DNA of 34,847 nucleotides, from positions 1 through 34,847 of the IMG/VR virus record IMGVR_UViG_3300010158_000189; one strand, given 5' to 3'. Below are positions 8,006 to 26,668 of the stretch, piece by piece. Source of the stretch: a virus. Numbering within the stretch: the stretch's first letter is position 1; each line of letters begins with the position of its first letter. Position numbers and translations under genes: made by a program. Under the pieces are notes generated by a model. The model saw nothing but the letters and a program-made list of their open reading frames with translations, was not told the DNA's origin and searched no databases.

Positions 8006-8318
8006 TCTTAATAGCTTGAAGCTTATTTAATAATCTAGTGACTTCTTGTTCTTGTTCAGGCGTAAGGTTTGTTGGGGTCGGGGTATGAAGAGCTACGGTA
8101 ATTTTCTCATCTACCTTCTTGACGTCCCTCCCGGCAAGCCAGAAGCCTGCCAGAGAGACAGCGAAGCCCGCACACGCCGATACAGTGTCGGCATCGGCAT
8201 ACCCCTTAGCAATCAGGGCAACGCCGCCAGCGGTCACTATATGCCGTACAGTAGCAAGTATCTGAGCTCGGATGTAGTCCGACTTAATTAGATAGTTAAA
8301 TAGATTATTAAACATCAT
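7998..8318 (-). CDS. putative holin (Pam3 gp28-like)
   Basis: A 106-residue protein with two membrane segments (about 21-38 and 46-63; HIVTAGGVALIAKG and ACAGFAVSLAGFWLAG) separated by a short acidic turn (YADAD), then a charged cytoplasmic tail with a coiled-coil-like end (NLTPEQEQEVTRLLNKLQ). The sequence style matches the Pam3-gp28 group of putative phage holins. Holins permeabilise the inner membrane at the end of infection. It starts MM at 8318 and overlaps the tail-fiber adaptor gene by 4 bases (ATGA). The assignment rests on topology and resemblance. Confidence 0.7.
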   Translation of the reverse strand: MMFNNLFNYLIKSDYIRAQILATVRHIVTAGGVALIAKGYADADTVSACAGFAVSLAGFWLAGRDVKKVDEKITVALHTPTPTNLTPEQEQEVTRLLNKLQAIKNV

Positions 8319-9157
8319 CCCACCAGAATACTTGTGCCATCGTTATAGAACGTAGCTGATTGATAGTTAAAAGCGAGTATGTACTGAGCTAGGCCGTTGA
8401 TAGTCTTTCCAGCAGGGGGTAGTACCGTAATTGGGTACGTCCCAGCATTTCCTGACCCATCAAAGACCGGATAAGGACCTAGAGTTGTAGGAAGCTGTAG
8501 AGTAGTTACCGGAGAGCTAGATTGATACACCGATAATCCAGCAAAGGCGTCAGACGTCAAGATGTTAATCGTAGCCGTGCCAGTCGTAGATACCTTATGG
8601 GTCGTGACACCTACTGCTGGAACTGCTCCTGAAGTAGGGGTAGAGATTACAATTGGCTGCCCATTAGCATCAAATGCTAAGTACCCATTCGCCCTTGCAA
8701 CTGAACTGGGAAGAACATTAGGCGGATTCAGGTCGGTGATAGGGCACTGTATCGTATACTGGTAGTCTGTATTAAGCTGCTGGATCTGTAGCTCTAGCTT
8801 ATCAAGACCCTGCTCAACAGCCCGAGGGTAAAAGGCCCCTTGGTTACTGATGCTGACAGTCTGAGTAAACGGAAGTATCCGGGTAATAGCAAGTTGTGTC
8901 CCTGACGAAATAGCAACAGGAGGAGCTCCAGTAATAGGGTAAGTCACAGAACCACCGATGCCCCAGAGATCCCCCGGTGCTGTCGGATTAAGGATTAGTG
9001 TATACAGACTAGCAGAAAGTATGACTGATGTACCTACTGCGTCAATATAACTGACTTGGATATCACCCGCAGCGACACCAATAAAAGGGAATGAGAAGAC
9101 GGTAGTGGCACCATTACCGCTGTATGTAATCGTTGTAGTAGTTGTCGATACCGTCAT
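8315..9157 (-). CDS. tail fiber / receptor-binding adaptor-like virion protein
   Basis: A 280-residue protein whose N-terminal half follows the pattern of podoviral tail-fiber heads: YSGNGATTVFSFPF (12-25), a beta-rich domain with GTQLAITRILPFTQ, then FYPRAVEQGLDKLELQIQQL, the helix that starts trimerisation. The C-terminal half is low-complexity beta sequence rich in Thr, Gly and Pro, with no catalytic motif. It probably attaches to the tail and carries or forms a fiber. It begins directly after the 946-residue internal virion protein (TAAATG). It is separate from the beta-helix tailspike at the other end of the late block. Confidence 0.75.
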   Translation of the reverse strand: MTVSTTTTTITYSGNGATTVFSFPFIGVAAGDIQVSYIDAVGTSVILSASLYTLILNPTAPGDLWGIGGSVTYPITGAPPVAISSGTQLAITRILPFTQTVSISNQGAFYPRAVEQGLDKLELQIQQLNTDYQYTIQCPITDLNPPNVLPSSVARANGYLAFDANGQPIVISTPTSGAVPAVGVTTHKVSTTGTATINILTSDAFAGLSVYQSSSPVTTLQLPTTLGPYPVFDGSGNAGTYPITVLPPAGKTINGLAQYILAFNYQSATFYNDGTSILVG

Positions 9158-16743: not shown

Positions 16744-17186
16744 TAGTTTACCATTCTATATCTATAAAAATCATTACCATTGATCTTTTGGGGGGTGAGT
16801 TCAAAGCCTACGATCTTAAGGAGCCGAACGGCTTCGTCGTACTTTGCATCAACATAGTTCTCTAATACAGGGAATAAGTTACTCATAGCCTTGACCTCTT
16901 TCCCGTAGATACGGGCAAACTTCAAGGGGCTCATCTGACTTACTTCGTTACTAGTAATTAAGTAAGGACGACCTACAAGGCTCAGGGGGGTACCACAGAT
17001 ACCCCACATGGCTACAATCTTCCCGTCAAGGAAGGCACTCTTCCTTAGTATACCATATTTGAAAGTTAAATACAAGGCTTTTTTTGCATCCATTCCAATG
17101 GCTTCAGCCTCTAGTCGGTCCTTAACTCTCATGTCTGCTGATAGCTTCTCTACATCATCTAGGACAGAGTACTTAATCTCAAACAT
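16743..17186 (-). CDS. GNAT-like protein of the T7 gp13/DUF2833 type
   Basis: A 147-residue protein with an acetyltransferase-like shape: ALYLTFKYGILRKSAFLDGKIVAMWGICGT contains the strand-turn-strand core (about 35-65; described by position), then PYLITSNEV and a C-terminal RLLKIVGFELTP. This matches the small protein found before the core genes in T7-like phages (gp13; DUF2833), needed for virion assembly. The acetyl-CoA-binding loop is degenerate, so activity is doubtful. It is coupled to the tail nozzle gene by TAATG. Confidence 0.68.
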   Translation of the reverse strand: MFEIKYSVLDDVEKLSADMRVKDRLEAEAIGMDAKKALYLTFKYGILRKSAFLDGKIVAMWGICGTPLSLVGRPYLITSNEVSQMSPLKFARIYGKEVKAMSNLFPVLENYVDAKYDEAVRLLKIVGFELTPQKINGNDFYRYRMVN

Positions 17187-20100
17187 TAATCGTCCCCTAG
17201 AGTCCAGTAAGCTACTACGGATAAGACATTAGCAGGCAGGGGATACGTTTGCTGAACAGCAATTTGACCATTAGGACCCCAACCCGAAGAGACATTCTTA
17301 TAATAATCTCCGGTGTATAACGGTACGGCATCGCCAGCAAGGGCCGTCATTGTCCTTTCTTTAATCTCGTTCATATCGGTCCATGCAACCTCAGCGTAAT
17401 TAGGCTGGGTACTGGCATCGGTTTGATCGGAACCAAGCTGGAGGCCTCTGGAGGCTTCTAGACGGATACCAACAGATGAGATTAGCTTACGACGGTTCTG
17501 GATCGACTTCCCTTCTACAGGGGGCGAGTCCATGTACATAGTCTGTAATTGACAGATATAAGGTAGGCCAACTACAATCAAAGATGCTGAGTTATCCAGT
17601 GTGATACTGCCATTCAGTACTGTCTGATTAGGGACGACTGACCCATCGGCAAGAATAGCAACTGACATACCTTCTAAGTGATTAAGACCAGTTACAACAG
17701 TAATAGGCGCAGAAATCGTCCAAGTGTTTGCTGCGACTGGGACAGGGCGGGGGCTAGTTGTATCAGGAGTGACCTCAGTTATTGCATTCAGAATCTGGCA
17801 ATGAACATGAGTACTATCTACATAAGACGTAATAGTTGCCTTGCCACCACCGGCACGAATTACACTACCAACCATTCCTGAGTTAAAGACAGCAGAACTA
17901 GCAGTAAAGATTACGTCAGTACCTGTAGCACTTGGAATATCAAGAATGGCATTTATAGTACTACCCTTATATGTCAGACCAGCGTCAACACAGAAGGTAT
18001 CTTCTACAGTATCCCAGTTTCGGTTATCCATACGCTCTGAGTAATATCTCCAAGCACCTTGGACATATCTTTGAGTAATGACATACACGGCATCAACAGG
18101 CGGCTCAGTTACAGAGCAGACACCTACAAAGAGACCATTAGTGTCATGGCGAGCCCACGCAAATACATTCTGTTCTTTAAGATAAGTAAGTGATAGAAGC
18201 TTACCGTCATTACGGACAACCCATAGAATCTTAAAGGGTTCTTCGGCCCAAGTTGCCTGAACCGATTGAAAGTTATTAAACAAATGGCTAGAAAGAGTCG
18301 TCAGATCTGTACCAGTGTAGATATTAGTATAGAAGTTATAACTCAGGTCACGCCAAATTGAACCCTTAGCTTGGACATAAAGGATATCGTAATTGATGAC
18401 CTGTGGGGGTACAATGGCATTACAGCCATTATAAGCCTGAGCAGTAGCAGTCTGATTACTCGGAGTAATACCAGATGAAGAACCTCCATTAACCTGCCAA
18501 GCACCCTTCCCAGTTAGTACAACAAGACCACCGGGCATTGGGACTAAGAACTGGATACCATTGACTTGTTGAGCCCACGGGGTTCCTGTAATTGAGTCAG
18601 CAGCAGTAACAGGAATACTTGAATCCATATTATTATACCTACCGGGTTGTGACATCCAGTAAGTATCAGGATTATTCAATGAGTTCCCGTATACTCTTCG
18701 TTGTTGAAAGTACGCAGCAACACTTGGATACGTCTTACTAAGTGGTCCGACATTCAAGGTTCCAGTTGCACCAGTACCAGCAGTACCGCCACCAGTCAGC
18801 GTTGCTCCTGAGACTGTGCACGGGGCTGTAGCCGCATTAAGCGTATAGGCATTACCTACTGTACCGGGTTGACGATAAGTCACAACAAGCGTAGTTGCAG
18901 TACTTGTATAAGTAGCTACAGACAGACTCAGAAGTGGAGATGCATTAAGCGTATTTGCTAATGTCTGTAAAGTAAGTGCAAGAGTGCTTTCAAGGTGAGT
19001 ATACACAAACCCTGATGTCACTGGAAATACAATACTATTACTGAAGTTAAGGGATATTCCATTGAACTTCACTACATTTGTATCAGCAGGGTTAGCACTG
19101 AATGTAACGGTACCTGTAGAAAGACCACCGCCGGAGTCAGTGAATGCAATCGTATCCGCAGGAACGTAGTTCTTTCCCGGATTAGTAACAATGAATCCTG
19201 ATACAGTCCCATTAGTCACTACTGGGGTTCCAGTGAATCCTGTACCAGTACTAGTTGTGACAGAATACCCAACAGTACTCTGACTATAATTTCCGCTGCC
19301 TACTGCTGTAATAGATACGCTATTAATGATACCACGAGCAAATGGGTCCGAATGTTGTGGAGGAACCTTTGTAAAGTCAGGGGTTATGTTTGTATCTGTA
19401 AAAGCAGTTCCAAGGGCTGTTCCAATGAATCCATATAGAGATGAGACAGGAACGCTAGCACTATAAGACGGAGATGTTGCATAAACATTATAAGATACTG
19501 CATTAGCAGATTGACGCCAAGTCAGACTATTCGAACCAGCTATCAACGCTATGTCAACATTCTGAATACTAGCAGGAGTGCTTGGGTTACTCTCTTCGCC
19601 TAAGGCATTAACAGCCGTGACTACATAAGAATACCAAGTCGATACAACACTGCTTGCTTGAGCAATAATGCTAAGAGAAGTAGGGGCAGCCATTACTGTA
19701 GAAAAAGTATCAGCAGTAAAGACCCAATTTGTATTTGAAACGCGAGTAAGACTGTAAGGAGAATATTCAGTCTGAGTACTCGTGTTGACACAAGTGAGTG
19801 TCATTACGTCAGCACTTTGAGTAAACTTAAGATAAGGTAGGTCTACTGCGGCATAAGGGGCCACGGCAGTATAGATACGGGCAACTGTTCCACCAGAAGA
19901 TACAGTACTAGTTGTAATAGCAGTGCCAAATAGATTTGTAACTGTAAATGTGTCTACAGTTGGAGTTGATGAAACGATCCAAGTCAGCCCTGAAAACCCA
20001 GTATTACCAAAGTCATAGACCCAGTCACCGACTGAGTAACCGTGGCCAGTTACTGCGAATGTGCCTACACTGTTTACAGAAGCCGACTTACTTGCTTCAG

Positions 20101-20395
20101 TTACATACGCTCCCTGAAACTTGACACGCATATAGCTTTGACCAAATTCAAGAACGTAGCCTTGATTCAGTGAGAACTGGAATGGGATGTCTCTAGGAGG
20201 AGTAGGGTACTGCTGCTTGCACATACCGACATAAGCTAGTCCTGCGCGAGAGTTTGCTCCGCCTTTATAACTAGCGAAGAAGTTCCTCATTGTAGAACAC
20301 CCTAGGGCGTACTTATCAAGATCTGTGCGTCCAAATAAACTAGGGGTCAGCTCACCTGCATTAAGGGCATTCTGGACGGTGATGTTACTTCCCAT
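17186..20395 (-). CDS. tail tubular protein B / nozzle (gp12-like), enlarged
   Basis: A 1069-residue tail tube nozzle protein. The start at ATG 20395 (MGSNITVQNALNAGELTPSL) has GGAG upstream and lies 2 bases after the gp11-like stop. Family landmarks are GRTDLDKYALGC, FKGG-like YKGGANSRAGLAYVG, GHGYSVGDWVY (about 118-127), a fibronectin-like segment (YSYVVTAVNALGEESNP, about 255-271), DTNITPDFTKVPP and AAYFQQRRVYG. Between about 357 and 555 two extra beta modules are inserted, which makes it longer than T7 gp12. The protein forms the lower tail tube through which DNA leaves the virion. It sits between gp11-like and gp13-like genes, as expected. Confidence 0.85.
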   Translation of the reverse strand: MGSNITVQNALNAGELTPSLFGRTDLDKYALGCSTMRNFFASYKGGANSRAGLAYVGMCKQQYPTPPRDIPFQFSLNQGYVLEFGQSYMRVKFQGAYVTEASKSASVNSVGTFAVTGHGYSVGDWVYDFGNTGFSGLTWIVSSTPTVDTFTVTNLFGTAITTSTVSSGGTVARIYTAVAPYAAVDLPYLKFTQSADVMTLTCVNTSTQTEYSPYSLTRVSNTNWVFTADTFSTVMAAPTSLSIIAQASSVVSTWYSYVVTAVNALGEESNPSTPASIQNVDIALIAGSNSLTWRQSANAVSYNVYATSPSYSASVPVSSLYGFIGTALGTAFTDTNITPDFTKVPPQHSDPFARGIINSVSITAVGSGNYSQSTVGYSVTTSTGTGFTGTPVVTNGTVSGFIVTNPGKNYVPADTIAFTDSGGGLSTGTVTFSANPADTNVVKFNGISLNFSNSIVFPVTSGFVYTHLESTLALTLQTLANTLNASPLLSLSVATYTSTATTLVVTYRQPGTVGNAYTLNAATAPCTVSGATLTGGGTAGTGATGTLNVGPLSKTYPSVAAYFQQRRVYGNSLNNPDTYWMSQPGRYNNMDSSIPVTAADSITGTPWAQQVNGIQFLVPMPGGLVVLTGKGAWQVNGGSSSGITPSNQTATAQAYNGCNAIVPPQVINYDILYVQAKGSIWRDLSYNFYTNIYTGTDLTTLSSHLFNNFQSVQATWAEEPFKILWVVRNDGKLLSLTYLKEQNVFAWARHDTNGLFVGVCSVTEPPVDAVYVITQRYVQGAWRYYSERMDNRNWDTVEDTFCVDAGLTYKGSTINAILDIPSATGTDVIFTASSAVFNSGMVGSVIRAGGGKATITSYVDSTHVHCQILNAITEVTPDTTSPRPVPVAANTWTISAPITVVTGLNHLEGMSVAILADGSVVPNQTVLNGSITLDNSASLIVVGLPYICQLQTMYMDSPPVEGKSIQNRRKLISSVGIRLEASRGLQLGSDQTDASTQPNYAEVAWTDMNEIKERTMTALAGDAVPLYTGDYYKNVSSGWGPNGQIAVQQTYPLPANVLSVVAYWTLGDD

Positions 20396-20397
20396 TA

Positions 20398-21213
20398 TTA
20401 ATCTCCAAACGAACCACCACCACCCGGCCAAGACATACTATAACCAGCACCAGAATTAAATCCGTTACCGTACCCAAATCCTAGATTATACCCTTGACCA
20501 CCATACCTAGCCTGCATCCAGTCTGGGGAGTGATCCATATTAGTCACGCCTTCATTACCATCACGAATTCTTGCCTGAGCAATAGCCATCTCGGCCTGCT
20601 TGACACAACGATCCATAAGAGGAATGTCGAGGGACAGCGCAGGTACAAGAAAAGCCCCAAGCGTTGCAACCATGGCTTCCTGAAACAAGCTGTCCCAACC
20701 CGCAGGGTTAGAATCATTGACGGTATATACCGCCTGAGCAAGTTGCTGGTTAGTCAAGATCGACAACAGCGTTGTGGCTGGAGCGAGGGTAACCTTTTGG
20801 ACCTTAAAGGGGATTTGACCACCAGTAGGTAACCAAGAGGCTGCTGCAACATTAACCGGGAAAGCAGGAGTGCTTAGACCAGTACTTGCAGGATAAGAAG
20901 GTACGATGTATCTGACGTCTAGGCAGTCAGAAGGATACGAGTATGCATACAGCCAAGGGGTCGGAGGAACTGGAAGAGTCAATCCGTCCGGGTTCTCAGG
21001 GGTACCCATGGCAGCAGCTAGAAGGGGCAGCGTTACTTGGCTTCCTAAGCAGTTCCAGTGGGCTGTACGGGCCAGTTGTTCAAACGTGGACTGCCATAGG
21101 GTACTGATGTGATCTCCCTCTACAGACCCGTCTGAGGGGTTCAGGGAGGAAATTTGACCACGGGCACCAACAGCCATAAGAGCTCGGTTGGCAATATTAA
21201 GTTGGTCGGCCAT
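20398..21213 (-). CDS. tail tubular protein A / adaptor (gp11-like)
   Basis: A 271-residue adaptor protein that joins the portal to the tail nozzle. The N-terminal NIANRALMAVGARGQISSL and then LWQSTFEQLARTAHWNC are characteristic of T7 gp11-type gatekeeper proteins. YAYSYPSDCLDVRYI and the late helix LDIPLMDRCVKQAEMAIAQA also fit. The C-terminus is a glycine-rich tail (GGQGYNLGFGYGNGFNSG onwards) of unknown purpose. It starts at ATG 21213, just after the stop of a 39-residue gene, and is followed after 2 bases by the nozzle gene. Confidence 0.85.
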   Translation of the reverse strand: MADQLNIANRALMAVGARGQISSLNPSDGSVEGDHISTLWQSTFEQLARTAHWNCLGSQVTLPLLAAAMGTPENPDGLTLPVPPTPWLYAYSYPSDCLDVRYIVPSYPASTGLSTPAFPVNVAAASWLPTGGQIPFKVQKVTLAPATTLLSILTNQQLAQAVYTVNDSNPAGWDSLFQEAMVATLGAFLVPALSLDIPLMDRCVKQAEMAIAQARIRDGNEGVTNMDHSPDWMQARYGGQGYNLGFGYGNGFNSGAGYSMSWPGGGGSFGD

Positions 21214-21216
21214 TTA

Positions 21217-21336
21217 TTAACCTATCCCTAGTAGTAATAGACCTTGGTTATAGATAGCGGGGAGGATACTACCCCAAGTAAAGTACTGAGGAGTATAGAA
21301 CCCCGGATTAAAGTAGTTCCGAGAAAAATAGGTCAT
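21217..21336 (-). CDS. 39-residue aromatic tail-region protein
   Basis: A 39-residue protein rich in Tyr and Phe (MTYFSRNYFNPGFYTPQYFT) with a hydrophobic end (AIYNQGLLLLGIG). It starts in an ATGA overlap with the repeat protein's stop and ends 3 bases before the gp11-like start, which fills an otherwise unexplained gap. Short aromatic proteins of this kind accompany the upstream repeat protein in related phages and prophages (from memory, not checked). Probably a small virion component. Confidence 0.6.
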   Translation of the reverse strand: MTYFSRNYFNPGFYTPQYFTWGSILPAIYNQGLLLLGIG

Positions 21337-22373
21337 GTCACATCTGTCGTGATAGCAGTCCTGTTACCGTTTGAATCCACTGTAGCTACGATACGATTCT
21401 TAGTATCCGCCACAGCATTCTTGAAGGTAATCGTGCTAGAGCCACCACCAGAGACCTTACCGGCAAGAGCCGAAGATAATAGTCTCAAAGCTTCCCGTGG
21501 ACTTAAGCCATTCTCGATGGCATCGATGAAATCCCAGACAGCAGGGCCTACGTTTGCAGTAGTTAGCAGATCGCCAGTGACAGTAATACCAGCAGACATT
21601 CTTCCATAAGCATTAGGTGTTCCAGAGACAGTGCCGGAGCCTAGTAGGATTACTGCTGCATTACCAAGAGCCTTGATAGCCCCTTGAAGGTCACCTGAAC
21701 CGGCTAGATTAGAAGCTATTGCAAATTGTCCACTGACAACTGCCAACAGGGTACCAGAACCAGATAAGGAACTACTGGCAGCCATTGTAGCATTGATACT
21801 AGAACCCACTGAGCTAGTGCCAGTAAGGTTAGCTACTACACTGACTAGAAGAGCCGCAGAAGCAGTTGTAATATCACCAGAACCAGACAAGGCTGCAACG
21901 ATACTCGTCACGAGACCCATATTAGCGGTAACAGCCCCAGACCCTGACAGAGCAGCAGCTAGTGAGGCAATAGCCTTAGCAGCGGCAGTCAGATCACCTG
22001 ATCCAACAAGTCCAGAAATAATATTAGCTTTTGCTAAAATCGATGCGGTTAGATCACCAGAACCAGTCAAAGGGGCAACTGCGTTAAGTCCACCCGCTAG
22101 ACGGAATGGTGTAATATTGCCAGTACCAGTCAAATAACTCCTGCTTGACATATCTCCAGAGACTTCTGGATACATATAAGCATTCGGCGTATACTGACCA
22201 GAAGGGATAGAAGTAAGCTTTCTGGCAGTAGTTGATCCGTCTTGGTAAAGAAAGTTTCTATTTGCCCCGCTTTTATTAAACGTACTGCGGACTTGTGGTT
22301 CAACAGAAGTCGTAGAACCGGCTAAAAATAGACTAGGAAGTTTATTCAGTACAGAATAGTTACCTAGTAGCAT
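21333..22373 (-). CDS. tail protein with ten 20-residue repeats and conserved C-terminal domain
   Basis: A 346-residue protein in three parts. The N-terminal 80 residues are unrecognised. Residues about 81-271 are repeats of exactly 20 residues built on L-x-G-S-G-D-L-T-A (GSGD at 104, 124, 164, 225; variants elsewhere), probably an extended beta or beta-helix rod. The C-terminal VWDFIDAIENGLSPREALRL and GKVSGGGSSTITFKNA followed by RIVATVDSNGNR form a domain common at the ends of phage and prophage tail proteins. It lies between the paralog pair and the tail tube genes. It may be a fiber or tail-attached shaft. No catalytic site is visible. Confidence 0.75.
   Translation of the reverse strand: MLLGNYSVLNKLPSLFLAGSTTSVEPQVRSTFNKSGANRNFLYQDGSTTARKLTSIPSGQYTPNAYMYPEVSGDMSSRSYLTGTGNITPFRLAGGLNAVAPLTGSGDLTASILAKANIISGLVGSGDLTAAAKAIASLAAALSGSGAVTANMGLVTSIVAALSGSGDITTASAALLVSVVANLTGTSSVGSSINATMAASSSLSGSGTLLAVVSGQFAIASNLAGSGDLQGAIKALGNAAVILLGSGTVSGTPNAYGRMSAGITVTGDLLTTANVGPAVWDFIDAIENGLSPREALRLLSSALAGKVSGGGSSTITFKNAVADTKNRIVATVDSNGNRTAITTDVT
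21561..22133 (-). repeat. in-gene tandem repeat, 60-nt unit, about ten copies
   Basis: The coding sequence repeats with a 60-base period encoding the 20-residue L-x-G-S-G-D unit. The copies have diverged at DNA level (the anticoding side shows recurrent AGATCACCAGAACC-like boxes), so they look old rather than freshly duplicated. Two copies carry an extra or shifted residue. Confidence 0.8.
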
Positions 22374-22374
22374 A

Positions 22375-23541
22375 TTAACCCCAGACGAATTCTAAGGACC
22401 CGAAGAAGGCAGAGTTCACAGGAGTAGCGGCACCAGCATAGATCAACCATGAAAGGCATGCACCATCCTGAACAACAGGCGCGGAAGGGAGTTGATTCAG
22501 TAGGTCACGTTCACCAGCGACACCAACAGTAGTGATTGGGATAGTCAATAGGGGTTTTACTAGAACTAGATTAAGTACACCAGAGATGTATGATGTCGAG
22601 ATCGTGACACCAGTAGGAGTCTGGACGCCTTGGTCACCAGCCTGAAGAGGCATAAAAGGGCCAAACTTACCAGAACCAGTACCAGCATACGCAATACTGC
22701 CTACAGGAGCAGCGGTGTTACCAATAGGTAGCGCAGGAGCAGACGGAGTCGCACGAGACGCAGTACCGGCGTTACCTGAAGTCGTCGCGTTCGTATACGT
22801 CAACGTCAAGTTCGGGGTAGCAGCACCCATCACGGTTGAAGGGACTAAAAAGGCTTGTACACCAGCACCATTTGTGTACCGAGGGGGACGCAGAGTCATA
22901 GTATGGGTACCAGTACCAGCATCTGTAAACGCAATGAACGTACCAGCCTTAGCATTCGCATAAGTAGTAGACACCTTAGCAGTCGTAGCAGATTGACGGA
23001 CTGCATAGTAAGTCGTATTTAATGATAATCCAGTAGGAAGAGTCGTAGTAGTTGTGAACTGACACGCCCAAATTGGACCACCAGCACCGCCAAAGTCGTT
23101 CGTATAAGTCAACAATAGACCAGTACTTGATGATGCAGTAAAGGTATTAGATGAGATAATCGTCTGAAGGGTAGTAGTAGTCGTAGTCGTAATAGGAACA
23201 TACGCAAGAACGTCTACAAGCATAAGTACAGCCGGAGCAGTCGTTACAGCGGCTGAATAAACTGAGGCATTAAGTATCTGCTTCACACTCGGGGAGACGT
23301 CACCGCCATGCAGAATACCTGCACCAGTCGTTGGTGAGTAGTCAAACATCGACTGCATCACTAGATTCGTACCGGTACCGTAAATCGTAGCAGCACCGGG
23401 ATTACCAGCACCACCGAAGAGATCGTACCACTGACCAGCAGCCTGAGCAGTCGTAGGAAGTGCGTTCTTATTCCAATCGGCTCTCCAGCGTTGTCCAGCA
23501 GACATCGCGGAAATCATTTGGTCCATACTTTGAATTGCCAT
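22375..23541 (-). CDS. virion protein, paralog A, with inserted beta module
   Basis: A 388-residue virion protein homologous to its upstream neighbour. The shared scaffold starts MAIQSMDQMISAMSAGQRWR, has a central VSPSVKQIL and VDVLAYVPI, and ends FFGSLEFVWG. After the VLAYVPI strand, residues about 128-217 are an inserted module containing LPTGLSLNTTYYAVRQS and AGTFIAFTDAGTGTHTM, a beta domain seen in many unrelated phage virion proteins. The scaffold resumes at RYTNGAGVQAFLV. It may be a capsid-exposed or tail-attached protein. Its precise place in the virion is not known. Confidence 0.72.
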   Translation of the reverse strand: MAIQSMDQMISAMSAGQRWRADWNKNALPTTAQAAGQWYDLFGGAGNPGAATIYGTGTNLVMQSMFDYSPTTGAGILHGGDVSPSVKQILNASVYSAAVTTAPAVLMLVDVLAYVPITTTTTTTLQTIISSNTFTASSSTGLLLTYTNDFGGAGGPIWACQFTTTTTLPTGLSLNTTYYAVRQSATTAKVSTTYANAKAGTFIAFTDAGTGTHTMTLRPPRYTNGAGVQAFLVPSTVMGAATPNLTLTYTNATTSGNAGTASRATPSAPALPIGNTAAPVGSIAYAGTGSGKFGPFMPLQAGDQGVQTPTGVTISTSYISGVLNLVLVKPLLTIPITTVGVAGERDLLNQLPSAPVVQDGACLSWLIYAGAATPVNSAFFGSLEFVWG

Positions 23542-24870
23542 TTAACCCCACACTGATTGAATCATACCGTGAAAGACAGAACCAGATAGGTTACCGTTCG
23601 GTAGACAAACTAAATTAAGATATGCATCATCTTGGATTACAGGGACAGAGCCACCAGCATCCATAAAGAATACTTTTTCAACAGGAGCATCAATAGTCCT
23701 GAGTTGAAAACTTGCTGTCGGATAAACAAGAGCCATAGAAATAAGGCCAACATCAACAGTGGTGAAAAGAATCCCATCCATCGATCTTACTCCGGTATCA
23801 CCGGTTTGAAGCTGTAGAAAAGGAGACGACTGAAGATTCGCTGTTGCATTAGGAATCATTACTGTCCCGTTTACAACCTGAGTCGAAGCAATCACCTGAG
23901 TCGTCCAACGATTAGGAACCCCATCTTGATTCGTATACTGTACGAAATACACCGGAGTACCTGAATGGGCCGCGACTACTACTGGCATCAACTGGAGTCC
24001 TTTATTCAGACTCGGGGATACTGTAGAAGTAGTAGATTGCAGAGACAAAGAAGTAAGAGTAACTGTATCACCATTGCTATTACCTGTAAGCCCGAACTGA
24101 AAGCTCACTGTACTTGACTTAGCAATGAAAGAAAATGATCGAGTAACGCCTAGAAAGTTCTGATTAATATTAGCTGTATTGCCGTATGTGAATGAGAACA
24201 TATCACTCGCACCGGCTGTATTAGAAGAAGCGACGTTTACTTGAAGACTTCCTGATGCAGAGGACATTGAAGAGATATTGAATTCACAACGATACATCTG
24301 ACCTACAGTTACTGCGACACTGGTTTGTCCGGCCCACGCAGCGGCAGCCGAAGCTGTCATAGTAATAGCATTACCGGGATTTGATAATGAACAGTTAGCA
24401 ATAGCAGTAAAACCAGTCGTGCCTGATACAGGAACTTGAGTCAGTATTTCAGAACCAAACGTAGCTGTACTAGATGCATACCAACGAGACGGAGGAGTCG
24501 TCTGAGTCATTGGTTGAACACCGCCAGTGCTTTCATCTAAGAATGGATAGAACCCCACCATGTCATATAAGACAAAGAAGGAAGGGATTGCAGCAGCAGT
24601 TGTATTAAGAATACTAAGTTGTTTCAGTAATTTTGTACTTGGTGAGACATTCATACCGACAGGAAGGCCATACGATAAAGAATAAGCTTGTGGTGTATAA
24701 GTATTAGGAGTGCCGATATAATAATTAGGAACAGGATTACCCGGAGACATACTCAGATCAAACCAGATATTTGCTCCAGTTGTTTGAGTAGGGGCCTTAC
24801 GCCAAGTAGCCTGCCATGACTGGCCGTTATTCTCGGCAGTCACCATATCACTGATATTACTTATAGCCAT
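23542..24870 (-). CDS. virion protein, paralog B, with inserted jelly-roll-like module
   Basis: A 442-residue paralog of the next gene. Shared landmarks are MAISNISDMVTAENNGQSWQ, VSPSTKLLKQ, VLYDMVGFYPF and the end VFHGMIQSVWG. After the FYPF strand, residues about 115-300 are an insert with GQMYRCEFNISS and NGDTVTLTSLSLQS, a pattern like carbohydrate-binding jelly-roll modules (CBM4/9-like). The scaffold resumes at NKGLQLMPVVV. The two adjacent genes thus differ mainly in what is inserted at one loop, which suggests surface display. Sugar binding is an inference. Confidence 0.72.
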   Translation of the reverse strand: MAISNISDMVTAENNGQSWQATWRKAPTQTTGANIWFDLSMSPGNPVPNYYIGTPNTYTPQAYSLSYGLPVGMNVSPSTKLLKQLSILNTTAAAIPSFFVLYDMVGFYPFLDESTGGVQPMTQTTPPSRWYASSTATFGSEILTQVPVSGTTGFTAIANCSLSNPGNAITMTASAAAAWAGQTSVAVTVGQMYRCEFNISSMSSASGSLQVNVASSNTAGASDMFSFTYGNTANINQNFLGVTRSFSFIAKSSTVSFQFGLTGNSNGDTVTLTSLSLQSTTSTVSPSLNKGLQLMPVVVAAHSGTPVYFVQYTNQDGVPNRWTTQVIASTQVVNGTVMIPNATANLQSSPFLQLQTGDTGVRSMDGILFTTVDVGLISMALVYPTASFQLRTIDAPVEKVFFMDAGGSVPVIQDDAYLNLVCLPNGNLSGSVFHGMIQSVWG

Positions 24871-25037
24871 TACTTATCTGATCCGACAGGCACTTCTTCA
24901 TTATTCATCGTTGAAAAGCCAAAGGCTTCGGCAGACATAGAAGCAGTTACTGGTTTACCAACATGGCTACAATTAAGTATGACATTCCCTTTGTCATCTT
25001 GAGACACAGGGGCACCACAGATAGAACAATTTAACAT
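24870..25037 (-). CDS. 55-residue zinc-ribbon-like protein
   Basis: A 55-residue protein with CSIC (4-7) and C23-S-H25, which together could bind one zinc. It starts MLNCSICGAPVSQDDKGNVI. It is coupled by TAATG overlaps on both sides (25037 and 24870), so it is certainly placed as a gene. The rest (ASMSAEAFGFSTMNNEEVP) has no known motif. Small zinc-binding proteins occur in late operons of other phages; the role here is unknown. Confidence 0.72.
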   Translation of the reverse strand: MLNCSICGAPVSQDDKGNVILNCSHVGKPVTASMSAEAFGFSTMNNEEVPVGSDK

Positions 25038-25471
25038 TACGTCTCCGTGACAGTAAGCTGACCAATTGCAAACTGAGGTTGAATCAAATTAGCTACGGTA
25101 AGTGGAGAACTCAATGCACCTTCATAAAGAACTGTGCCTGCACCACTTGAAGCTGTTCCGATAGCTACGTAAGTAATAGTCGCGCCGGTAGCGCCGCATT
25201 GTGCGAACTGTGCTAGGGCAGCGTTAGACGTAGAACCAGAAGAGGGAATAGCCCAGCCGGAAGTAGTTCTGACTACAGCAAGACGGACATAGTTTGTATA
25301 AGCTGTTTCATTAGTAGTCTGGTTATTGCCAACACCGGGATTAGCAGTATGTAGCGATAGATATAGACTAGTATTAGGTGACGTAGCAGTATTATCCGCA
25401 ATGTTAGCCCAGTTCGTCGCGTTAAAGACTAAGGCTAAGATGGAGTTACAAGTAGCAGTACTTTTTGGCAT
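25037..25471 (-). CDS. conserved virion protein, beta-rich
   Basis: A 144-residue protein with SLYLSLHTANPGVGNNQT and YTNYVRLAVVRTTSGW, a combination common in small structural proteins of phages and prophages, probably decoration or tail-associated. The C-terminal VANLIQPQFAIGQLTVTET is beta-rich. It is coupled by TAATG to the zinc-ribbon gene and follows the 149-residue gene by 8 bases. The family is recognised only as a phage structural type; its location in the virion is not known. Confidence 0.65.
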   Translation of the reverse strand: MPKSTATCNSILALVFNATNWANIADNTATSPNTSLYLSLHTANPGVGNNQTTNETAYTNYVRLAVVRTTSGWAIPSSGSTSNAALAQFAQCGATGATITYVAIGTASSGAGTVLYEGALSSPLTVANLIQPQFAIGQLTVTET

Positions 25472-25479
25472 AGCAGTCC

Positions 25480-25929
25480 TTATTTATAATAGATATTGAC
25501 GATGAATTCAGAGGCACTGACAGAAGTAGTATCATTATCCGCAATACCCCCTGTAAAACAATACCCAATACCATTTGCGAATATCAAACCATTTTCATAA
25601 CTACGGGCAACACCTGCTCCTGAGGCACCTGCTGGGACCATAAGACGGACCATAGGGGTACCTGCACCGGGAGTAGGAGCAGTAGCTGTGTCATAGATCT
25701 TCAGATAACCTATACTTGTAGAGTTATTAAAGATTTCAAGACCATAGATTTGACCACCAGAAGACTTAACTTCTGTTGAATTAGTTGAGTTTGTCATGAC
25801 TTGTGACGAGATACTCAAACCACCTGCTGTAAGTGGAACAAGGCTTGTCCCTAATGTATCACTAGGCCCATTACAGACCATTGTTACATAGGGCTTCACT
25901 AGTCCATTTAAAGCAGGATTAGGGAGCAT
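25480..25929 (-). CDS. virion-associated beta protein
   Basis: A 149-residue protein with IYGLEIFNNSTSIGYLKIYD and GLIFANGIGYCFTGGIADND, a pattern shared by many phage structural proteins of roughly this length. It is predicted to be an all-beta decoration-type fold. It is coupled by TAATG to the acidic 143-residue gene. No catalytic motif; two cysteines (about 19 and 122). Confidence 0.65.
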   Translation of the reverse strand: MLPNPALNGLVKPYVTMVCNGPSDTLGTSLVPLTAGGLSISSQVMTNSTNSTEVKSSGGQIYGLEIFNNSTSIGYLKIYDTATAPTPGAGTPMVRLMVPAGASGAGVARSYENGLIFANGIGYCFTGGIADNDTTSVSASEFIVNIYYK

Positions 25930-26360
25930 TACTTCGCGCCGATTTTATACAGGCGGCTCATTCTATCTGGACGGCCCGGATTATTCCGAGTATTGAGCTT
26001 CTTTGCTCCATCCTTAGGATACTCAGCGCCGACGATATTGTCTTCTGCTTCTTCGTTCTCTTCGTTCTCTTCTTCTTCGTCTTCACCAGACATATAGCAA
26101 ATCTGGAGTTCTACACGACAGTGTGAACCGGACTCTAGATCCTGAGAAGATACCGAAGTAACCTTAGCAAGGGCGTGAAGATGAAGCATGTCACCTATTT
26201 CTAGGTCATTCTCGTCAACACCGATCTTTTCTAGCTCTTTCTCACATAGAGAAATAGACAGGCCGAATGGGTACTTAGGAGTGCCGAGGGACGGAGACAT
26301 AGCCTCCGCCTTCTCGTCATCATCCATAGCCATGTCAACCATAGCTGGGATCTTTTGCAT
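25929..26360 (-). CDS. conserved phage capsid-region protein with acidic tract
   Basis: A 143-residue protein containing PKYPFGLSISLCEKELEKIG and IGDMLHLHALAKVTSVSS followed by HCRVELQICYM, a beta-barrel-like pattern seen in small capsid-region proteins of podoviruses. A strongly acidic run of Glu/Asp/Asn at about 90-107 precedes a basic C-terminus (RNNPGRPDRMSRLYKIGAK). It may stabilise the capsid, or act as a head fiber base; neither is shown. It is coupled by TAATG to its neighbours on both sides. Confidence 0.62.
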   Translation of the reverse strand: MQKIPAMVDMAMDDDEKAEAMSPSLGTPKYPFGLSISLCEKELEKIGVDENDLEIGDMLHLHALAKVTSVSSQDLESGSHCRVELQICYMSGEDEEEENEENEEAEDNIVGAEYPKDGAKKLNTRNNPGRPDRMSRLYKIGAK

Positions 26361-26668
26361 TAGGCAAATACACGATAGTTATATACAGAGGTATCCGAAG
26401 CAGTGCCCTTGATTGTAAAGCCCGTACCAGCGGTAATTGTATCTACAACAGGAGCAGCACCAACAGTACCACCAACGGTCTTCAAAGTTACTGCAATAAC
26501 GGAGTTAGCGGTGATTGCGGCATTAGCAACAGTTACCGGGGTAACACCATTCAACGTAACAGTGCCCATCATCGTATACAAGTCACTTACAAGAGGGGAG
26601 ACTTGACCAGTAGTAAGATTGATATTAGAACGGGGAATTAGTGATTTAATGACAACAGTATCTACCAT
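26360..26668 (-). CDS. small beta-rich virion protein
   Basis: A 102-residue protein of alternating Val, Thr and Gly (TVTLNGVTPVTVANAAITAN and GTGFTIKGTASDTSVYNYRV), typical of phage decoration or fiber-knob proteins. Ends YNYRVFA. There is no catalytic motif or cysteine. It begins 3 bases after the MHxRH-repeat gene, in a run of small late genes. Confidence 0.62.
   Translation of the reverse strand: MVDTVVIKSLIPRSNINLTTGQVSPLVSDLYTMMGTVTLNGVTPVTVANAAITANSVIAVTLKTVGGTVGAAPVVDTITAGTGFTIKGTASDTSVYNYRVFA

Follow-up and report, generated by a model that had tools for sequence, protein, structure and literature searches.

Genes at the locus

The window, a stretch of 34,847 nucleotides from IMG/VR record IMGVR_UViG_3300010158_000189, derives from a T7-like podophage encoding a connector, tubular proteins, internal virion proteins and a gp17-type fibre N-terminus. 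Two abutting minus-strand genes, the stop of one meeting the start of the other, lie within it. The product of gene A (22375..23541) is a scaffold protein of 388 aa in which what we call the PRY loop holds an LPTGLS-type module, and gene B (23542..24870) encodes a paralogous scaffold protein of 442 aa with a jelly-roll-like insert. They occupy the middle of a four-gene cassette, all on the minus strand, whose first gene (25037..25471) is a Gp80 homologue belonging to the podophage GP4 fiber I protein family (PF23140). The fourth gene, a conserved neighbour (21333..22373), encodes an L-x-GSG repeat protein composed of repeats of ~20 residues; its glycines recur with a period of 20 (autocorrelation 0.27 versus 0.21 at the shuffled 99th percentile). 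In the window the cassette is placed between the capsid and tail genes. Just upstream, at 25929-26668 on the minus strand, are two small late genes; the matches there are to phrog_825 and, weakly, to the C-terminal portion of a polysaccharide deacetylase family (phrog_24355).

Homology and predicted structure of A and B

The original prediction held that the two genes share homologous sequence, and this was confirmed. BLASTP aligned A with B over their whole length (E 2e-15), and hhalign matched the family profiles of A and B at 100% (E 5.5e-57, 287 columns), with both inserts appearing as gaps and with conserved positions common to the two proteins along the full-length alignment. These alignments identify A and B as paralogues.

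The AlphaFold2 (AF2) model of A is confident along its whole length (pLDDT 90.8, pTM 0.90). In the predicted structure of B, pLDDT is mostly ~90 or more across the scaffold and poor to moderate (26-80) in the insert. The scaffold strands of the two models match one to one and in the same order: those of A at residues 87-95, 104-117, 229-234, 244-251, 306-314, 323-336, 343-346, 363-369 and 378-387 correspond to those of B at 80-89, 97-112, 293-300, 307-314, 361-371, 376-390, 397-400, 418-423 and 433-441. Both proteins show compositional bias, so their similarity could in principle reflect convergence or low complexity among Ser/Thr/Ala/Gly-rich virion proteins, but the full-length profile alignment with its shared conserved positions and the identical strand order have already refuted this explanation.

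No family in Pfam, PHROGs, NCBIfam or the PDB matched the A/B scaffold by sequence, and a Foldseek search of the PDB returned no convincing match to its fold. Capsid proteins (Nudaurelia, IBDV and others) were dropped as candidates for the scaffold fold, with TM scores of 0.15-0.2 and an rmsd of about 20 Å. Foldseek did match an insert-less predicted model, A0A6J5RWB6, with a TM score of 0.91 by target length.

Inserts and their sites

Relatives that lack the inserts define their boundaries. The A protein of a related locus, L059, is 69% identical to window A over 297 aligned residues, and the gap in the alignment corresponds to window-A residues 135-219; L059-A runs continuously from TQTL into PRY. 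The A insert (22885..23139, minus strand; residues ~135-219) is the LPTGLS/NTTYY beta module and comprises ~85 residues, slightly fewer than the ~90 first proposed. L059-B is 53% identical to window B over 285 residues, with a gap at window-B residues ~130-290, and passes directly from SR to STTGAGVQ. The B insert (24007..24480, minus strand; residues ~131-288), a predicted beta-sandwich, therefore adds ~158 residues to window B, and the earlier estimate of ~185 must be revised. A 642-kb phage (LR756502) also encodes both A and B without inserts, at lengths of 297 and 284 aa. Judged by sequence continuity in these relatives, both inserts are true insertions, unrelated to each other as had been proposed. 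The contrary outcome, in which they form part of an ancestral continuous domain, did not emerge: homologues without inserts are widespread.

The A insert immediately precedes P220-R221-Y222, and the B insert follows directly on R129-W130. Since these insertion points flank the PRY/PRW motif on opposite sides, a few residues apart, the inserts share an inter-strand connection but not a residue position. The original prediction of a common insertion loop thus holds for the connection that follows the same strand but not for the exact site, which is offset around the motif.

Nature of the inserted modules

That phage virion proteins carry modular beta domains is already well known. The LPTGLS module matches portions of baseplate wedge, wedge-fibre connector and tail fibre families in PHROGs (best E 9.4e-6), in agreement with its earlier description as a module found in phage virion proteins. 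A second module, of roughly 76 residues, occupies an N-terminal loop of many A homologues and matches a PHROG tail-fibre family (E 6.6e-6). Each of these modules also occurs in one neighbouring protein, other than A or B, of related loci. Foldseek additionally aligned ~90-column stretches of A with predicted models of tail fibre and spike proteins, and these stretches are most likely the LPTGLS module. The modules resemble Ig-like and other mobile beta domains (those of Hoc and gpV type, and the LPTGLS domains of PHROG baseplate and fibre families) in being optional surface modules shared by unrelated virion proteins. Modules of the Hoc and gpV type, however, are terminal or tandem extensions, whereas those of A and B sit in internal loops, at two alternative sites, on a scaffold of two paralogues.

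The B insert had been likened to carbohydrate-binding jelly rolls, and this likeness lies in the predicted fold class, which would be that of CBM4 and choice-of-anchor-C domains. Foldseek matched it to the CBM4 structure 1gui with a probability of 0.98, but the alignment is loose (rmsd 5.0 Å over 107 columns) and the insert is modelled with low confidence; the search also returned a fold resemblance to Cry protoxin domains. The match to NCBIfam choice_anch_C (TIGR04362; E 5.6e-5, 23.4 bits) falls below the curated cut-off of 120, and none of the CBM families in Pfam matched the insert. These results are suggestive of a weak resemblance to jelly-roll carbohydrate-binding-like domains, short of family membership. 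A Pfam match of B to Phage_holin_3_3 (E 8.6e-4, 19.8 bits against a cut-off of 28.4) was rejected: it covers a short Ala-rich segment within the insert. Searches of phages by tblastn with the inserts alone returned one record or none, but the queries are short and biased, so this near-blank result is not evidence of absence.

Distribution and evolution of scaffolds and inserts

We used a scaffold profile to search for relatives and found 529 related places in IMG/VR, of which 80 were kept, and 12 in bacterial assemblies; these loci are a non-random sample that includes many near copies. Of the 104 non-redundant A proteins surveyed, 32 lack a large insert, ~39 carry one in the N-terminal loop and ~31 have their PRY loop filled by the LPTGLS module. 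A therefore has two alternative insert sites, which are filled, empty or exchanged depending on lineage. B, by contrast with A, is usually an unoccupied scaffold: 86 of 90 B proteins are empty, and insert-bearing forms occur only in the window phage, its close copies and the loci L046 and L047. One A protein from a bacterial assembly (L130, 10001-11284) has a jelly-roll-like module in its N-terminal loop, apparently of the same type as the window-B module but at another site.

In a tree of the scaffold columns, a single branch with a support of 98 parts 46 A rows from 35 B rows. This division indicates that the A/B pair is ancient and not the product of a duplication local to the window phage. 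On the tree of the 46 A proteins, the insert states need at least seven changes, and well-supported branches force four changes for the label 'none'; these counts are approximate, because one protein (L066) was scored 'none' although part of a module is present. Window A and its sister from L046, both with a filled PRY loop, fall in a supported group together with the empty L059 protein and a clade filled at the N-terminal loop. Modules are exchanged across such lineages. Window A is 69% identical in its module and 57% in its scaffold to the A protein of L123, a member of a distant clade, whereas against L046 the module is only 39% identical and the scaffold 63%. This discordance between module and scaffold is the pattern that would be expected of module exchange or independent gain. 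The notion of a duplicated scaffold with a swappable site is thus upheld as to the exchangeability of the inserts, but the site is not single, A having two.

Genomic settings of the cassette

The order Gp80-B-A-repeat is kept in about 100-102 of 134 loci, and most of the loci without the full order seem to be contigs truncated close to the cassette. Wherever B and A both occur among the 134 loci, B always precedes A; two loci (L003 and L129) have Gp80-A-repeat and no B. In most cassette-bearing loci, whose flanks are short, no other window gene was recognisable nearby. The cassette is also found in very different phage backgrounds: in a 220-kb contig (L081), in the 642-kb phage and, as Gp80-A-repeat without B, in the cultured, long-tailed Pseudanabaena phage PA-SR01, the source of locus L003. 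The cassettes of L003 and L056 adjoin fibre-like genes, collagen-like in the latter case.

Two neighbouring observations may be recorded here. At L046 (4611-5655), extra genes, one with a helix-turn-helix-like start, lie between Gp80 and B and are possibly a mobile element. The public record names a gene of phage Pam2 (L137, 1-504) 'botulinum neurotoxin type A', presumably in error.

Relation to fiber I of GP4

The window Gp80 homologue matches PF23140 with an E value of 5.1e-18 (66 bits, above the cut-off of 27) and the solved relative 8jou (10 chains) with an E value of 2.7e-7. Pfam assigns this relative to fiber I of the Ralstonia podophage GP4 (Zheng et al. 2023, J Mol Biol 435:168258), although PHROG_240 and RefSeq records give Gp80 relatives the name 'head protein'. 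Fibre I of GP4 is reported to be a chain of Gp80 dimers linked by a rope protein. Mass spectrometry of purified virions of the Burkholderia phage JC1 identified its Gp80 homologue, gp53, with five unique peptides and 59% coverage (PMC9144972).

The window resembles GP4 in belonging to a podophage, in having a member of the Gp80 family as the first gene of its cassette and in encoding a glycine-rich repeat protein nearby. In the GP4-type phages BcepMigl and Itty13, however, A and B are lacking beside Gp80, and the A and B profiles did not match the genes that follow it there, whereas in the window A and B stand between Gp80 and the repeat protein. The gene after Gp80 in BcepMigl encodes a glycine-rich protein (gp28) with a weak 22-residue period. 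Homology between this protein and the window GSG-repeat protein is not supported (BLASTP E 0.42), and a role of the latter as a rope or shaft partner is therefore possible by analogy only.

A putative secondary adsorption fibre

Because the cassette Gp80 belongs to the bead-protein family of GP4 fibre I, the most likely role of A and B is as components of a secondary fibre. We consider it probable that A and B build such an adsorption fibre together with the Gp80 bead and the GSG-repeat protein, and that the exchangeable loop domains alter its contact with surfaces. The ancient beta-rich pair, the bead and the repeat protein would form an appendage on the side of the virion. It would be distinct from the tail fibre of T7 type, for which the window encodes an N-terminal attachment domain at 8315-9157. 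Relative to a GP4-like fibre of Gp80 and rope, the cassette would contribute two further subunits. The A/B scaffold would do the structural job, while its inter-strand loop, and in A also the second loop near the N-terminus, would tolerate whole beta-domains. As these are gained, lost and swapped between phages, they may change the surface sugar or protein that the fibre contacts.

The product of the 8315-9157 gene (minus strand) is only 280 aa long and has a fibre N-terminus of the T7 gp17 type (phrog_1640, E 3e-21); it could be either a shortened main tail fibre or an attachment piece. Also on the minus strand, at 17186-20431, is a homologue of tail tubular protein B (phrog_376) that is 1081 aa long against a profile of 712 columns; its residues ~100-560 look like added beta-rich sequence.

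The inserts might instead be neutral or merely stabilising, spread by recombination while binding stays unchanged. The insert-less forms counted above are abundant enough in both A and B to indicate that the inserts are dispensable, and baseplate and connector proteins without a known receptor role also contain the LPTGLS module. Nevertheless, nearly all large insertions fall in two loops, where they have been gained or exchanged repeatedly, and the nearest likeness of the B insert is to carbohydrate-binding-like jelly rolls; together these points make neutrality rather unlikely.

It also seems improbable that A and B are a Hoc-like capsid decoration that the inserts extend, sticking phages to mucus, polysaccharide or cells. 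The 'head protein' label of the Gp80 relatives and the placement of the window cassette between capsid and tail genes would suit a decoration, as would the modular display of beta-domains that is common among such proteins. The assignment of the solved Gp80 relative to fiber I of GP4 and the fibre-like neighbours at L003 and L056 point away from the capsid, however, and Foldseek matched no known decoration fold.

On the reading of a secondary adsorption fibre, the cassette could, more tentatively, be a transferable and hitherto undescribed appendage unit, widespread at more than 500 places in viral contigs and common to T7-like, long-tailed and very large phages. Its two ancient paralogous scaffolds would then form a hetero-oligomer whose exchangeable loop domains add a second adhesion specificity.

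None of the family libraries searched contains the scaffold family, yet it turns up in hundreds of viral contigs from widely differing phages and is nearly always present as a B-then-A pair. The cassette shows a natural display site, and natural pairs with and without inserts, such as those of the window and L059, would allow a direct test of what a single domain does in phage adsorption. The cassette also suggests that fibre I of the GP4 type is one form of a more general, mobile appendage.
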